Origin: Candidatus Cloacimonadota bacterium
GTDB taxonomy: Bacteria; Cloacimonadota; Cloacimonadia; Cloacimonadales; Cloacimonadaceae
Assembly: GCA_028703735.1 (NCBI GenBank)
Contig: JAQVMI010000026.1
Coordinates: 1 to 11,790 of the forward strand
Direction: 5' to 3'
DNA length: 11,790 nt
The position numbers were made by a program, and so were the translations under genes. Below, in pieces: positions 4,222 through 11,790 of this stretch (its first letter is position 1; each line of letters starts with the position of its first letter). The notes under the pieces are model-generated. The model saw only the letters and a list, made by a program, of their open reading frames with translations. It searched no databases and had not been told where the DNA came from.

Positions 4222-5286
4222 ATGCGTAGAGTATTGTTTTGTGCCACAGTAATTTTGTTTGCTTTGGCAGGTTGCTTCAAAGGCGGTGAAAAAGCAGACC
4301 GCTACACAATTTTCGATAAGCTCTTAGATCATGGAAAACCTCTTGCCATGGGTGACGACAGGGATGTATATGTATTTTGCGATGCAGCAAACTGGAAAAC
4401 CCTGGAACCCTTTATCCGCAGCGGTATAGAACGTGAGGTTCCAATTGTATATCCAGAGAAATATTTCAATCTGATCTTAGCGGATGTGAAGGAAGCCAAT
4501 ACCCTGGTGAAATACAAAAACATCCTTTACATTGGTGATCTGGCAAGCACTTCTCCCGTTTCAATGCACATGAAAAGTGTTCTGGCACAGGATTTTGTAA
4601 GCCGCGTGAACTCCAGCGGGGGGGATTTGTTTGTAGCCAAAAACCATAGCTCGCGGGATCAGGTAATCCTGTTTCTTTTAGGAAAGGATGCCATTAGCTT
4701 AAGCAAGATTGGTGCATTGCAGGCAGATCCTATATTTTCCCTGCTGCTTCGCAGGCTTACCGAACGCCAGGGATATTATGCTTATCAGGGCAAGGTTTTA
4801 CCGGAAGATTTCTTTGCGCCATATCCTTACAGCCTAAAGATTCCAGATACATATAGGGTTTATTCAAACGATCAGCAGGGCAATTTCCTCAGCTTTTTAT
4901 ACCGTGCCAAGATGCAGAATAGGGAGATCCCGGATAAATACATATCGGTTTATCATGAGGCAATGCCAGAAAACAAAGTAGATATTGCCTGGACTATTGC
5001 CAAGCGTAAGGAACTGGGAAACAAGTATTTTGAAGGGGACGAGTTTGATGCGGAACTTATCAGGCAAGAGCCTTTCCGCTTAGGTTCGCAAAATGGTTAC
5101 CGCCTTATGGGAGCGTGGAAGAATATGAAACATGCCATAGGAGGCGGGTTCCAGAGCTTTTCTTTTTGGGATGAGAACACCAAAACTGCCTATATTATAG
5201 ATAACATCGTATATTTTCCCGCAGGAGATAAACTTCCCATCCTTGTAGAACTGTATGCTATCTCAAATTCTTTGAAGATTAAATGA
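4222..5286 (+). CDS. DUF4837-like lipoprotein
   Basis: 354-residue predicted lipoprotein. A positively charged start (MRR), a hydrophobic stretch and the lipobox ALAGC put the lipidated Cys at 18. The mature part starts with a segment resembling DUF4837: a VYVFCDAANW strand (49-58), a charged helix, then ...YPEKYFNLILADV and NILYIGDL. Further on are an IPDTYRVY segment (about 208-214), GGGFQSFSFWD (about 307-317), and a final VYFPAGDKLPILVELYAI stretch. DUF4837 proteins are mostly known from Bacteroidota and have no established function, so no activity is assigned. The gene begins 3 bases after pgsA and overlaps the next lipoprotein gene by ATGA (5283-5286), so the two are probably co-translated and may work together at the envelope. 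Confidence 0.6.
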   Translation: MRRVLFCATVILFALAGCFKGGEKADRYTIFDKLLDHGKPLAMGDDRDVYVFCDAANWKTLEPFIRSGIEREVPIVYPEKYFNLILADVKEANTLVKYKNILYIGDLASTSPVSMHMKSVLAQDFVSRVNSSGGDLFVAKNHSSRDQVILFLLGKDAISLSKIGALQADPIFSLLLRRLTERQGYYAYQGKVLPEDFFAPYPYSLKIPDTYRVYSNDQQGNFLSFLYRAKMQNREIPDKYISVYHEAMPENKVDIAWTIAKRKELGNKYFEGDEFDAELIRQEPFRLGSQNGYRLMGAWKNMKHAIGGGFQSFSFWDENTKTAYIIDNIVYFPAGDKLPILVELYAISNSLKIK

Positions 5287-7043
5287 AGCTACGTAAAGCT
5301 ATCAAATTCATCCTGCCTTTATTGGTCTTGATTCTGGCTTCAGCTTGCTCTGCCCCACTGCAAAATGCCAAAAGCAATCCGCCGGATCCATCGCGTCCTA
5401 CCATGGAATCCATCTATTATTATTGCACAGCTTCGCTTATGCATTACGAGGGTGATTTTGCCCTGGCAAGTGTGCTGTATAAACATGCAGAAGATGAAGA
5501 TCCTTACAGCCCTCAGATTAAGAAACAGACCCTGATAAATAATGCGCATGCCTTTCTGAACAATCAAAAGAGTTCCGAAAGCATCGTGGCAGATTTTAAT
5601 TTGGCACGGGAATCCCTTACTTTCGATGAAGACCTGCTAAGTGCTGCCTATTCAGTTTATAGCCAGGCAAAGGATGAAGCTGGGGTACAATGGACTGTTG
5701 ATCAAGGGGTTACCAATTTTCCCTCTACACGCTCTTACCTGCAAAAGTTTTATTACGATTTCTCCCGCAAGGGTATTAAGGACACTGAAAGCTTAAATAC
5801 CGCATATAAACTTGCTAAAAACAACGCAGATGATTTATTGCTTACGGCTCGCATGTATGCCTTTATAGATATTCCCCGCAGCATCCAGATATTGACCGAA
5901 GCTAAACAAGCAGAACCAAAACCTGATATCGACAGGTTTCTTACCGAACTACTGTTGCAGTTTAATCCCCCAAAAGCCAGAGAGCATTTCCTTAGCTTTA
6001 GCTATCCCGAGGATAGCTCGCAGATGTTGCATTTCTTACAAATTGCCAATCAGCATAAGGCTTTGGCTGCAATTTTGGAATTAAGCGAAGCCATATTTGC
6101 TACGCATGATCCAAATCTGCTGGCAGAGCTTGCTTTTGCCGCATATATGAATGACGATAAAAGCACTTTAGCCAGGCTAAGCGAAATTGTTATTACTATG
6201 AATCCCGTAACGGAAGAATACACCAGAATTGCTACCTGTCTTCTAGTTGATGCAATGTTTACCGAATCCTCTATTCATGCCCAAAGGTATGCAGATATGC
6301 TGTATAGCGTTCAGGATGTGGACGATATGTTGCTATATAGAACCATGCGCCTTACCTTTGCAGCACCCACAGATACGATTGGTGCCGAATCAGAATTCTC
6401 CCGCTTTATGCAGGATATGGAATTTAATAAGCTTGATACCAGCCCACTTTTAGATTATCTTTTGGCAGTTTCACATGCTACGGCTGTGAATGATTCCACT
6501 TTAACCGATTCCAGAATAAAGCTTTGCGAGTATTTCACAAATATTAACCGTGGTTATGAGGTAGATTGGAGTTTGTTGCTTACCTATTATCACCAAACCG
6601 GCTTGATAAACCAAAAAATACCCATGCTACGCCGTGCAATAGAAAGATTCCCCAATAACCCTCTGTTCTTAAATGATCTTGGCTATAGTCTGTTGGATTC
6701 CCCAAATTCCTATGCGGAAGCAGGGATTCTTATTACAAGAGCCACCGCCTTGGAACCCGAAAATGGCTATTATCAGGATAGCATGGCATGGTATTATTAC
6801 CTGGTGCAGGATTATGAAAATGCCCTGAAACACATTGCCATACCCATGCGAATGAGCAACCCTCCCTCCGAAATATCTTACCATATTGGCATGATCCTTA
6901 TCGCAAATAGCAATAACGAAGCAGCAATCCCATTTTTACAGGCTGTTTTGAGTGATGCCACCAGCAAAGCATATCAGGAGAAAGCCAGGGAAGCTTTAAA
7001 GAACCTTGAGGTAAAACCAGATTCTTCCAGCTCCGTAGATTAA
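5283..7043 (+). CDS. Large TPR-repeat lipoprotein
   Basis: 586 residues. The N-terminus MKLRKAIKF, a Leu-rich core and LASAC give a signal peptide with probable lipidation at C22. The lipobox has Ala rather than Leu at -3, so it is less certain than in the upstream gene. The +2 Ser is compatible with outer-membrane sorting in species using a Lol-type rule. The whole body is alpha-helical. Clear TPR units lie at about 430-555, with P-N-N-P-LFLNDLGYSL, then A-LEPENGYYQDSMAWYYY (about 488-505), then SYHIGMILIANSN. This LNDLGY...DSMAW arrangement is shared by many outer-membrane TPR lipoproteins. It likely acts as an envelope scaffold, but the partner is unknown. It is the last gene of the block, and no hairpin plus T-run follows directly. 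Confidence 0.8.
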   Translation: MKLRKAIKFILPLLVLILASACSAPLQNAKSNPPDPSRPTMESIYYYCTASLMHYEGDFALASVLYKHAEDEDPYSPQIKKQTLINNAHAFLNNQKSSESIVADFNLARESLTFDEDLLSAAYSVYSQAKDEAGVQWTVDQGVTNFPSTRSYLQKFYYDFSRKGIKDTESLNTAYKLAKNNADDLLLTARMYAFIDIPRSIQILTEAKQAEPKPDIDRFLTELLLQFNPPKAREHFLSFSYPEDSSQMLHFLQIANQHKALAAILELSEAIFATHDPNLLAELAFAAYMNDDKSTLARLSEIVITMNPVTEEYTRIATCLLVDAMFTESSIHAQRYADMLYSVQDVDDMLLYRTMRLTFAAPTDTIGAESEFSRFMQDMEFNKLDTSPLLDYLLAVSHATAVNDSTLTDSRIKLCEYFTNINRGYEVDWSLLLTYYHQTGLINQKIPMLRRAIERFPNNPLFLNDLGYSLLDSPNSYAEAGILITRATALEPENGYYQDSMAWYYYLVQDYENALKHIAIPMRMSNPPSEISYHIGMILIANSNNEAAIPFLQAVLSDATSKAYQEKAREALKNLEVKPDSSSSVD

Positions 7044-7175
7044 TATACTTATCTATCCACTTAAATTTCCAGAAAACCACCCCAATCCACCCCTTTATAG
7101 GATGAATTTCATACAGTACAGCAAAACAATCTCCCTCTCCTGCATGAAGAAATCTCGGCTAAAAACCTTGTGATT

Positions 7176-7225
7176 CCCTCGTGAATCCCTCGTCCCACCT
7201 GGGAATCACGAGGGAATTACGAGGG
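7176..7225. repeat. CCCTCGT-rich palindrome
   Basis: CCCTCGTGAATCCCTCGT (7176-7193) pairs with ACGAGGGAATTACGAGGG (7208-7225): 16 Watson-Crick pairs, one G-U and one mismatch in 18, around a 14-base loop. Each arm is itself a direct double of CCCTCGT. A second register is possible, because GTGATTCCC (7170-7178) is complementary to GGGAATCAC (7201-7209). No T-run follows, so it is not a standard terminator. It is probably a small palindromic repeat element. Confidence 0.7.
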
Positions 7226-7270
7226 CATTAGCTGCGATTGCACCATGGAAGAATAGGATTTATCCACCCA

Positions 7271-7354
7271 TGCAAGTTTGGAGTGAATAATGCCCTTCCT
7301 ATCTTTAAAGCTACCTATATCCTTGCGGCATTATGGACTTCAACGTCTCCCCTC
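7271..7354 (+). repeat. 84-bp direct repeat, copy 1 (intact)
   Basis: Begins TGCAAGTTTGGAGT and is followed directly by copy 2. It aligns with copy 2 over all 84 bases with no gap once the inserted element and one target duplication are removed. The period is a multiple of three, and this frame reads CKFGVNNALPIFKATYILAA..., without a stop. Most differences between copies change amino acids, so coding function is doubtful. Confidence 0.85.
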
Positions 7355-7437
7355 TGCAAGTTTGGAGTCGATGATGCCCTTCCTATCTTAGAAGCTGCTT
7401 ATATCTGGCTCTCTTTCAAAGCGAGTGGGTAACTTTT

Positions 7438-7463
7438 GTCATTCCGGACTTGATCCGGAATCC
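7438..7463. repeat. REP-like hairpin arm, left (GTCATTCC...GGAATCC)
   Basis: ATTCCGGA (7441-7448) and TCCGGAAT (7454-7461) form a perfect 8-bp stem with loop CTTGA, in the frame GTCATTCC...GGAATCC. It is present in inverted orientation relative to the right arm. From memory, hairpins of this GTCATTCC/GGAATCC type are dispersed in many unrelated bacterial genomes. Confidence 0.8.
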
Positions 7464-7540
7464 AGTTTTTACAAACCACCTTGTGTAAATGCTGTAATAT
7501 GTTGGTTAACAGCATGTTATCATTGTAACAATTCTAAATT

Positions 7541-7565
7541 GGATTCCTGCCTTCGCAGGAATGAC
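7541..7565. repeat. REP-like hairpin arm, right (GGATTCC...GGAATGAC)
   Basis: ATTCCTGC (7543-7550) and GCAGGAAT (7555-7562) form a perfect 8-bp stem with loop CTTC. It mirrors the left arm's outer GTCATTCC and inner GGAATCCA, but the stem core differs (CTGC versus CGGA). The outer sequence is therefore conserved while the stem centres changed in a compensated way. Confidence 0.8.
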
Positions 7566-7775
7566 AAGCAAAAAAAACCTCTACCCACTTAGTTTGAAAG
7601 AGAGCCTATATCTTAGCGGCATCATGGACTACAACGCCACCCAACTAATAATCCCATAACATTTACCCTATAACCTGTATATTGCCACCGCTGAAGTCCT
7701 ATCTGCTAAAAGAGATAGCAAAATGTGCATAGATTTATAAAGCAGATACAACTCCAGACTAAATTTTATCACCAC

Positions 7776-7902: not shown

Positions 7903-7930
7903 AGTAAGCAGAAAGAGATAAGGAGAGATG

Positions 7931-9217
7931 ATGGCAATGGAATCCCTTCGCTTTCATGAATTCATGCCTGACAAGGTGTGGAAGTGGAAGATTTTGGAAG
8001 AACGGGTGGAAAAAGTTCTATCCCTACACGATTATCAGGAAATCCGTCTTTCTGTATTGCAGGATTATCAGGTTCTGCACACCGGAATCACTGCTTTGAT
8101 GCAAGGTTATGAGGCAGATAATGCTGTGAAATCCGTGCTGTCTTTATCGCTTCCGGAAAGTAAACTAAGCCTGCTAAGCTTACGTCCGGAAGGAACTATT
8201 AGCGTTTTGCACCACACTGCCAGAATTATTAACGATGGTGAGGTGCACAGGTTTTACTATATGGGACCAATGTTTCGCAAAGCAGAAGCAATTAATCAAA
8301 TGGAATTCTATCAATTAGGGGTGGAGCTTCTGGGCAGCGAAAGCATACTATCCGAAAACGAAGTAATTAGTTTGGGAATGAAAATCTTTCAGGAGCTGGG
8401 TCTTAATGGCGTCCATCTGGAATTAAATTCCTATGGCTGTTCGGAATGCAGGATAGCTTTTTTTGAAGACCTGCGGGAATACCTTAAAAACCACACCACA
8501 GATTTTTGTAAAAGCTGCTATGAAGAGCTTTATGCAAATCCCTTCAGCGAAACCCAATGTATGGATGCTGCTTGCAAACATTCCCTAAAACAGGGACCTC
8601 AGATAGGGAACTATCTGTGTAAAACCTGTAAGGCTAATTTTGACAAAGTGAAAAAAATCCAAGCCAACTTAGGGAACAGTTACAAGGTTAATCCTCATCT
8701 TTTTAAGAACTTTGCCTATTATAACGAAACTGTTTTCGATTTCATGGTAACACACGAAGGAAAAGAGCTTGTTATAGGAGGTGGCGGACGTTATGATTAC
8801 CTTTCTACACGAATAACAGGCAAGCAAATACCCGCTGTGGGGTTTTTTATAAATCTGGATGTTCTATTCGAAATTATGGAATCCAAACGGATGTTTAGGG
8901 AAAAAGAAAATGATTTCAAGGTATATCTATGTTCCGAAAGCGAAAATTTGGAGATGATGACCTTGCAAATAGCTCAGGAATTGCATGGCAATGGAATTAA
9001 AACTATTATTTCGCCCGAAACTACCGATACAAAGACAGAAATAAAACAGGCAATAGCCAAACAGTGCTCCCTTATGCTGATAATTAGGGATGATAACATA
9101 CGTGAAGGTAAGATATTGATGCGAAATCTGATGAAAGAACATCAGGATTATATTCCCCTAAAAGATACCCTGCCTGCCGTACTCTTGGCAAGAAAAGCCA
9201 TGAAACAAGAAGGCTAA
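7931..9217 (+). CDS. Histidyl-tRNA synthetase-like paralog (HisS/HisZ family) with altered catalytic motifs
   Basis: Class II synthetase fold of the HisRS family, about 428 residues. Numbering below counts from an upstream ATG at 7928. That ATG is only 2 bases from AAGGAG (7920-7925), so ATG 7931 (5 bases) is the better start, with 7937 a third option. It keeps RPEGT (86-90), FR of motif 2 (116-117), a YYNETVF stretch (264-270) and GGGRYD (285-290), plus four Cys pairs (171/174, 194/197, 211/216, 231/234) as in the zinc-type insertion of many bacterial HisRS. However, the ERPQ segment of motif 2 reads AEAI, and the histidine-specific LVRGLDYY reads LFKNFAYY, replacing the catalytic Arg by Lys and the Asp by Ala. 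A degenerate anticodon-binding-like domain follows (330-429). It may be HisZ, an amino-acid-activating paralog, or a divergent HisRS. It heads a three-gene operon. Confidence 0.75.
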   Translation: MAMESLRFHEFMPDKVWKWKILEERVEKVLSLHDYQEIRLSVLQDYQVLHTGITALMQGYEADNAVKSVLSLSLPESKLSLLSLRPEGTISVLHHTARIINDGEVHRFYYMGPMFRKAEAINQMEFYQLGVELLGSESILSENEVISLGMKIFQELGLNGVHLELNSYGCSECRIAFFEDLREYLKNHTTDFCKSCYEELYANPFSETQCMDAACKHSLKQGPQIGNYLCKTCKANFDKVKKIQANLGNSYKVNPHLFKNFAYYNETVFDFMVTHEGKELVIGGGGRYDYLSTRITGKQIPAVGFFINLDVLFEIMESKRMFREKENDFKVYLCSESENLEMMTLQIAQELHGNGIKTIISPETTDTKTEIKQAIAKQCSLMLIIRDDNIREGKILMRNLMKEHQDYIPLKDTLPAVLLARKAMKQEG

Positions 9218-10177: not shown

Positions 10178-10190
10178 GCTGTTATTTTTA

Positions 10191-10254
10191 GGTGGAAAGG
10201 TGGAAAGGTGTAAAGGTGGAAAGGTGGAAAGGTGAAATGGTGGAAAGGTGAAAC
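10191..10254 (+). repeat. 8-bp tandem tract (GGTGRAAN) x 8
   Basis: Eight consecutive 8-base units, mostly GGTGGAAA with variants GGTGTAAA and GGTGAAAT, ending in GGTGAAAC. It begins after TTTTTA only 13 bases past the adenosyltransferase stop. The 8-base period breaks any reading frame. The final GGTGAAAC then AAGCRGATAGATAT is the same junction seen twice at the window end. Confidence 0.9.
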
Positions 10255-10359: not shown

Positions 10360-10438
10360 GTTTCACCTTTCCACCTTTCCACCTTTTCACCTTTTTACGG
10401 AGGATCGGAATCCTCCGCTACCTTTCCACCTTTTCACC
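10360..10438 (-). repeat. Inverted 8-bp tract (GGTGRAAN family, minus orientation)
   Basis: Units GTTTCACC, TTTCCACC, TTTCCACC, TTTTCACC (10360-10391) and, after an interruption, TTTCCACC, TTTTCACC (10423-10438) are the reverse complement of the tract at 10191-10254. The interruption holds a perfect hairpin, CGGAGGAT (10398-10405) / ATCCTCCG (10410-10417) with loop CGGA. The array ends about 20 bases before the gpmA ribosome site. Confidence 0.88.
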
Positions 10439-10470: not shown

Positions 10471-11217
10471 ATGTATAAAATAGTTTTAATCCGTCATGGA
10501 GAAAGCATCTGGAACAAAGAAAATCTCTTCACCGGCTGGACTGATGTGGATTTATCCGAAAAAGGATTAACCGAAGCCCACACAGCCGGAAAAAGGCTAA
10601 AAGAAGAAGGCTTTGTTTTCGATGAAGGATGGACATCTGTGCTAAAACGTGCCATCCGGACAATGTGGATAACTTTGGACGAAATGGATAGCATGTTTAT
10701 ACCCATTCATCACGATTGGAGGCTGAATGAACGCCATTATGGGGCATTGCAAGGTTTGAACAAAGCAGAAACAGCCGCAAAATATGGTGAGGAACAAGTG
10801 AAAATCTGGCGTCGCAGTTTCGATGTTCCACCTCCGGCTATGGAAATAAACGATCCCCGCTATCCAGGCATAGATAAACGCTATGCAAATCTTGCAGCAG
10901 AGCAGATTCCGCTTTGTGAATCACTGAAAGATACCGTTGCCAGAACCATGCCTTTTTGGAATGAAGTGATCCTTCCCAGGCTATCCGCAGGTCGCAAAAT
11001 GATTGTTTCTGCACATGGGAACTCCCTTAGAGCAATAGTTAAAAACCTAAATCACATCAGTGATACCGATATCGTTAGCCTCAATATTCCCACAGGAATT
11101 CCCCTGGTTTACGAATTTGACTCAATGCTAAATCCCATAAAAAACTACTACCTTGCAGATGCAGCAGAAGTAGCAGCAGCAGAAGCAGCAGTTGCAAACC
11201 AAGCCAAGGCAAAATGA
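10471..11217 (+). CDS. gpmA: 2,3-bisphosphoglycerate-dependent phosphoglycerate mutase
   Basis: Glycolytic/gluconeogenic enzyme interconverting 3- and 2-phosphoglycerate through a phosphohistidine. The 248-residue product has the RHGES motif with the nucleophile His at 9, R60, E87 in LNERHYG and the second catalytic His at 182 in SAHGNSLRA. It also has the [13 protein letters not shown] stretch specific to dPGM. Length is typical of the family. The last 18 or so residues are Ala/Glu-rich, coded by GCA/GAA runs, a variable tail often seen in this enzyme. AAGGAG (10458-10463) lies 7 bases before the ATG. I see no clear promoter in the repeat-filled gap upstream, so its transcription start is undetermined. 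Confidence 0.97.
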
Positions 11218-11529: not shown

Positions 11530-11534
11530 GTTTA

Positions 11535-11588
11535 GGTGGAAGGTGGAAGGTGGAATGGTGAAAAGGTGGAAAGGTGGAAAGGTGAAAC
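11535..11588 (+). repeat. 8-bp tandem tract (GGTGRAAN), 7 units
   Basis: Two 7-base units GGTGGAA are followed by five 8-base units: GGTGGAAT, GGTGAAAA, GGTGGAAA, GGTGGAAA and a terminal GGTGAAAC. It starts right after the terminator's T-run, following TTTA as in the tract at 10191. The shortened first units suggest slippage or decay at the outer edge. Confidence 0.88.
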
Positions 11589-11790
11589 AAGCAGATAGAT
11601 ATAGTTGCAATGGATTAACTGATGTTTCGGTATCTCATTTCAAGGATGGGGCAAGTAGTATCTTTGGGAAGGTGAAAAGGTGGAAAGGTGAAAAGGTGAA
11701 ACAAGCAGATAGATATAGGTGCAATGTATTAACTGATGTTTCGGTAGCTCATTTCAAGGATGGGGCAGGTAGTATCTTTGGTAAGGTGGG
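11581..11790 (+). repeat. 114-bp tandem repeat, two copies, second cut by window end
   Basis: Copy 1 is 11581-11694 and copy 2 starts at 11695 and is still running at 11790. Each unit is GGTGAAAC, a unique block of 82 bases (AAGCAGATAGATAT... to ...TATCTTTGGGAA) and, in copy 1, three more 8-base units. The copies differ at only about five or six positions over 96 bases, so the duplication is recent or homogenised. No ORF of note is present. More units may continue past the window. Confidence 0.9.

Follow-up and report, generated by a model that had tools for sequence, protein, structure and literature searches.

A 200-bp miniature element with ISL3-type ends in a tandem repeat of a Candidatus Cloacimonadota genome

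When the 11,790-bp stretch of Candidatus Cloacimonadota DNA analyzed here (the window, which is contig C162 of G000, a 2.5-Mb draft genome of 472 contigs and 80.8% completeness) is compared with its own genome and with related genomes, a likely origin emerges for the repeat at positions 7407-7606. This 200-bp, non-coding, multicopy sequence is a miniature inverted-repeat element (MITE) with ISL3-type ends, and from the sequences compared, an ISL3 transposase supplied in trans very likely placed it in the second of two 84-bp tandem units. The ends, the further copies, the flanking duplications and the shared transposase remnants can all be seen in these genomes; that an ISL3 transposase mobilized the element follows, with some confidence, from the matching ends and the length of the duplications. 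In the route that we propose, an older repeat unit, made of two opposed dRS3-like palindromes around 75 bp, was probably taken up as cargo between ISL3 ends. The inverted repeats of the resulting element would be cut and joined in trans by a transposase of the ISL3 family, the element would enter the second tandem unit, and about 8 bp of AT-rich target would be duplicated by the insertion.

An initial reading of the DNA (the first-pass annotation) described a 200-bp MITE-like element with perfect 14-bp terminal inverted repeats lying in a tandem repeat, and this description holds. The element occupies 7407-7606 on the + strand, and in an inverted-repeat comparison its left arm (7407-7431, + strand) and right arm (7582-7606, - strand) pair at 22 of 25 positions, including every one of the outer 14. 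It is short, present in many copies and devoid of a transposase gene, with no open reading frame of 80 aa or more inside it. The only coding trace is a run of codons, S-T-H-L-V-stop (TCT ACC CAC TTA GTT TGA; 7580-7597, + strand), that overlaps the right inverted repeat and reads as the residual C-terminus of a transposase. Between the arms, the motif listing places palindrome A (GTCATTCC..GGAATCCA; 7438-7464, + strand) and palindrome B, inverted relative to A (7540-7565, - strand), on either side of a 75-bp core (7465-7539, + strand) that recurs in the 200-base consensus built from the copies. The element is bordered by TATATCT at 7400-7406 and at 7607-7613 (both + strand). Of the tandem units, all on the + strand, the first is uninterrupted (7271-7354) and the second is split into a part left of the element (7355-7406) and a part right of it (7614-7645). 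The whole arrangement lies between a gene for a 586-aa protein with weak TPR matches below the Pfam cut-offs (5283-7043, + strand) and a histidyl-tRNA synthetase-like gene (7928-9217, + strand) that matches PF13393 and whose best NCBIfam model, hisS, scores 258.2 bits against a cut-off of 286.75. Just upstream of the 84-bp units, at 7138-7252, there is also an imperfect 52-bp inverted repeat with CACGAGGGAAT motifs.

A search for the ends, as the first-pass annotation had suggested, returned many other copies. Allowing two mismatches, the 14-bp end occurs 85 times in G000, compared with 14 times for the reversed control, and the full element gives at least 53 blastn matches there, a count that rests on 40 scored candidates out of 118. 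Among those scored, the copies nearest to the window element, on C280, C371 and C13, are 99%, 98% and 97% identical to it over 199 bp, and the 99% identity of some copies suggests that the element has moved recently. From 61 stretches of G000 (the window and 60 that were fetched), 28 copies, including that of the window, could be aligned over at least 150 bp. It had been foreseen that the interpretation would fail if no other copy shared these ends, or if all copies lay in identical long flanks devoid of target duplications; instead, sister copies exist, their flanks differ, and about half of the candidate end pairs show target duplications of their own. Beyond G000, when up to the best 20 candidates per genome were considered, the element had matches in 13 of 39 other genomes, and among those listed none was longer than 39 bases and all were end-only or interior-only. 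No copy was found in phages and plasmids at E 1e-5, and viral contigs gave no match to the right end and a single distant locus related to ISL3 (22% identity).

The ends had at first been left without a recognized named family, and they can be assigned to ISL3. In the most telling case, all 14 of their outer 14 bp are matched by an element of 214 bp in G063 (L117:1501-1714, minus strand), which carries perfect GGCTCTCTTTCAAA at both ends. Its reading frame opens with MDRPLEVQICEDLLELQGFFSS, resembling the start of the transposases P0017 and P0024, and after a deletion it ends MEGLTHSV-stop; its flanks show no matching duplication. On these features it derives, by internal deletion, from an ISL3 element whose outer ends are exactly those of the window copy, and it is thus the bridge between insertion sequence and MITE. 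P0017 and P0024 themselves start MDRPLEVQICE(D/E)LLELQG and, together with the ISL3 transposase P0018, end in THLV, just as the right end of the window element reads STHLV-stop. This ending is shared by nine full-length proteins (413 aa) among 120 listed homologues. With the NCBIfam ISL3 model (cut-off 180), P0024 scores 239.5 bits and the G057 transposase 253.7 bits.

Remnants of ISL3 genes are also found adjoining the window-type ends in G009, G017 and G029. The decayed C-terminus of an ISL3 transposase in G009 leads directly into TTTGAAAGAGAGCC, which is the exact outer right end, and at a contig edge in G017 there are 31 C-terminal residues (84% identity) with GLTHSV-stop inside the exact right end. 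A similar truncated copy in G020 retains 23 C-terminal residues, whose GLTHLV-stop again falls within the exact right end. In these elements the ISL3 reading frame stops at the right end or within it; that of G057 finishes GLTHYN-stop. Right ends that carry GLTH-type codons, at up to two mismatches, were detected in 15 of 124 genomes of the phylum; the genome of the window is not among them.

Two elements with intact genes show what a complete member looks like. That of G057 is 1,346 bp long, with an open 413-aa transposase gene, ends that agree with each other at 21 of 25 positions and a duplication matching at 7 of 8; that of G115 is 1,345 bp long, with an intact ISL3 gene, ends that agree at 19 of 25 and an exact 8-bp duplication. 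The outer 14 bp of the window element match the ends of the former at 10-11 positions and those of the latter at 8-9. In the search for a full-length insertion sequence bracketed by these ends, which the first-pass annotation had suggested, an ISL3 deletion derivative and gene remnants were found to carry the ends; the intact elements of G057 and G115 match at 8-11 of 14. We retrieved no intact transposase gene bordered on either side by exact GGCTCTCTTTCAAA; where both ends are exact, the copies are deletion derivatives or fragments. When named genomes were scanned with a 14-transposase alignment, 13 loci emerged, two of them full-length (L216 and L217) and 11 partial; neither of the two full-length loci, whose ends were delimited, had exact ends. 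In G025, G032 and G047, the ISL3 loci showed no end within two mismatches.

Of 49 genomes from the family, 5 have matches to Pfam ISL3 (PF01610), one of these being the decayed transposase of G009. Within G000, no ISL3 transposase was detected with PF01610, the G057 protein or P0024 as probes, nor was there any match to a right end with GLTH codons. This absence carries little weight: the draft is incomplete, and the nine THLV-ending transposases sit on contigs of which the longest span 1,348-1,704 bases, the metagenome contigs of P0017, P0018 and P0024 measuring 1,355-1,558 bases. Such lengths are as expected of repeats that were assembled alone, and of a size that a draft can lose; short contigs may be missing from this one.

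Another kind of transposase could in principle have acted on the element. IS1595 members can have GGCTCT-like ends and 8-bp duplications, so that the resemblance to ISL3 would be convergence, and the shortness of the end sequences, together with the failure to find an intact ISL3 gene with exact ends, leaves some room for such a driver. We nevertheless judge it very unlikely, since the ends bracket ISL3 coding remnants in G063 and adjoin others in G009, G017 and G029, and since the right end in the window still encodes ISL3 C-terminal residues. IS1595 itself was rejected as the driver, PF12762 having matches in none of 30 genomes.

The target-site duplications agree with mobilization by ISL3. 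They were assessed at 29 candidate end pairs in the 61 stretches, at least three of which are alternative pairings of one element. Exact 8-bp duplications were present at 3 pairs, duplications with at most one mismatch at 10 and with at most two at 14, compared with means of 0.18, 0.61 and 2.04 (maxima 2, 4 and 6) when partners were shuffled 500 times; 15 of the 29 have no 8-bp duplication within two mismatches, and one copy shows an exact match of 10 bp. Exact 8-bp duplications also flank four elements in G020. The duplications of sister copies are 8 bp long and AT-rich, and against this background the 7-bp duplication TATATCT proposed for the window element is indeed present at both sides but is atypical. 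It is exact over 7 bp, it has six mismatches when compared as 8 bp, and it is the only duplication of exactly 7 bp among the 29 pairs. The sequence seen would result if one T dropped out of an 8-bp duplication, either TTATATCT or TATATCTT, and we infer that this is most likely how the 7-bp form arose. An element in G029 has a 7-bp duplication too, located within an A-run.

The interior of the element has a wider distribution of its own. The motif GTCATTCC-N10/11-GGAATCCA occurs 112 times in G000, with no occurrence of the reversed control. Of 49 genomes from the family, 21 contain it. In the window its two instances take the form ATTCC..GGAAT, with spacers of 11 and 10 bases and in opposite orientation around the 75 bp, and they fail the strict dRS3 pattern ATTCCC(N8)GGGAAT. 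Given such abundance, and given that the palindromes also occur without ISL3 ends, as in C321, the ISL3 ends might be passive, with the element spreading through its internal dRS3-like (NIME-like) repeat by recombination or by a site-specific recombinase. This appears highly improbable: many sister copies have the ISL3 repeats as their limits, with 8-bp duplications directly adjoining these repeats, which largely refutes the idea, and MITEs in G020 and G003 combine the same or nearly the same ends with different interiors. These ISL3-ended MITEs (L058, L059 and L064 in G020; L069 and L070 in G003) have lengths of 196 and 244 bp, and the same loci hold longer elements of 452 and 717 bp; the palindromic repeats they contain differ from those of the window.

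Mobilization through the ISL3 ends is therefore our preferred reading, and it can be extended, tentatively and with rather low expectation, to a view of these ends in Cloacimonadota as packaging that can be reused for intergenic palindromes, with the MITEs of each lineage bearing its own set. The dRS3-like pair would then be a second, independently mobile unit, and the window element a two-layer structure served by two recombinases; it is an equally doubtful part of this extension that other inverted-repeat elements take up the pair as cargo too. Few loci bear on this view. If it were true, ISL3 ends could be a principal means of spreading intergenic palindromes through these genomes.

Several further arrangements of the palindromes were encountered. 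On C321 (L177, about 530-660), a dRS3-like pair without ISL3 ends adjoins an ISL3 MITE with a different interior. On C452 (L168, about 556-870), an inverted-repeat element with ends GAGACTGTGCGAAAAC takes the place of the interior in an ISL3 MITE, giving nested elements, and this inner element itself holds a dRS3-like pair. Tandem arrays of the dRS3-like palindrome occur in G000 at C7:531-692 (period 34 bp, 5 copies) and at C137:4112-4398 (period 87 bp, 4 copies).

When the element and one TATATCT are removed, the second tandem unit (7355-7406 joined to 7614-7645) aligns with the first (7271-7354) without a gap, as the first-pass annotation had stated, and 69 of 84 positions are identical. In a register test in which 0-13 bases were removed to the right of the element, only removal of 7 restored the register, with 25 of 32 matches after the junction; the other 13 lengths gave 3-13 of 32. 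The further claim, that the element was caught inserting with its empty site preserved alongside, goes too far, since the neighboring unit is an 18%-diverged paralogue and not a pre-insertion allele. With 15 of 84 positions different between the units, and 99% identity between the element and its nearest sister among the copies scored, the tandem duplication seems to be older than the insertion. Precise excision that left one target copy would yield an identical empty sequence, so the first unit might be thought an excision product instead of an uninterrupted sister unit, in which case the locus would record no insertion into unit 2; but the same contrast, 15 of 84 differences between the units against about 1% between the element and its closest sister, indicates that the units probably separated well before insertion, and we give this idea almost no credence.

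Insertion into the second of two older units thus remains the preferred reading of the locus. The comparison of orthologous loci that had been proposed yielded no empty site: the 84-bp repeat had no match in 7 other genomes of the genus, and in 6 congeners, read by eye, the orthologous histidyl-tRNA synthetase-like gene is preceded by a different stretch that is occupied by other genes. Upstream of the orthologous gene in G005 (L207, within about 600-1500) there is a standalone TTCCCGC..GCGGGAA palindrome pair.

How does the element relate to systems already described? TIMEs are Tn3-derived miniature elements, non-autonomous, with inverted repeats and mobilized in trans, and they have Tn3-type ends and 5-bp duplications. 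Compared by description only, the window element is like them in being non-autonomous, in its inverted repeats and in its proposed mobilization in trans, and unlike them in its ends and in the length of its duplications. With the ISL3 family (NF033550, PF01610), as represented by the Cloacimonadota examples, it shares the layout of the 25-bp ends (which in G057 include an inner GTGGGTA), the 8-bp duplications and a transposase reading frame that stops at the right end or within it; it departs from ISL3 insertion sequences in having no transposase gene, only the last codons being left.

The closest parallel is a MITE of Microcystis aeruginosa. Passages of PMC11448079 describe it as 187 nt long with ends GGCTCTTCG and 8-nt duplications, assign it to ISL3, and report an inserted copy seen between laboratory isolates. 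Set beside those passages, the two elements are alike in their length, in ends that start GGCTCT, in 8-nt target duplications, in an inferred ISL3 driver with no transposase encoded, and in stem-loop potential (PMC11448079). They differ in phylum and interior, and the Microcystis ends are 9-nt and imperfect whereas those of the window are 14 bp and perfect; the Microcystis genome, as those passages present it, also holds a partner transposase with matching ends, unlike the result of our search in G000 (PMC11448079). The neisserial intergenic mosaic elements covered in parts of PMC3898611 are similar in their palindromes of about 20 bp and short inverted ends, and the dRS3 repeats in their abundance in intergenic DNA, where they are combined with short core repeats. 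Neisserial dRS3 is defined there as ATTCCC-N8-GGGAAT (PMC3898611), unlike the ATTCC-N10/11-GGAAT of the window, where the pair is enclosed by ISL3 ends, and the likeness is one of form.

An ISL3-driven MITE is thus already known from Microcystis, and the window element is a further example from another phylum. In the open-licence literature we found no account of a miniature inverted-repeat element in the phylum Cloacimonadota or in the genus, and none of this element, judged by title, among works on insertion sequences or transposases of Cloacimonadota. The assignment supplies a likely driver family for an unrecognized repeat of a phylum whose named records, as far as we met them, are metagenome assemblies. 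As the MITE, deletion derivatives and ISL3 elements with intact genes all occur in one phylum, the path from insertion sequence to MITE becomes readable stepwise.

Finally, we considered whether the element has features of a structured RNA. A search of Rfam at the gathering threshold gave no match, and a promoter and terminator scan made one terminator-like prediction, on palindrome A, where 0.5 would be expected by chance. The single copy folds strongly (z -9.9 versus shuffles), which is expected of any long inverted repeat. The consensus was built from 25 of the 28 copies, one that is cut short and the two most divergent being left out, and in it only local hairpins remain, with changes on both sides in 1 of 20 pairs and 10 of 500 cells unpaired; there is thus no case for a conserved, selected RNA fold. 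Elsewhere in the window, 8-bp tandem repeats of the AGGTGGAA type flank both sides of the gene at 10471-11217, and a 114-bp tandem unit lies at the contig end; together these repeats occupy 10190-10250, 10361-10395, 11534-11584 and 11552-11788.
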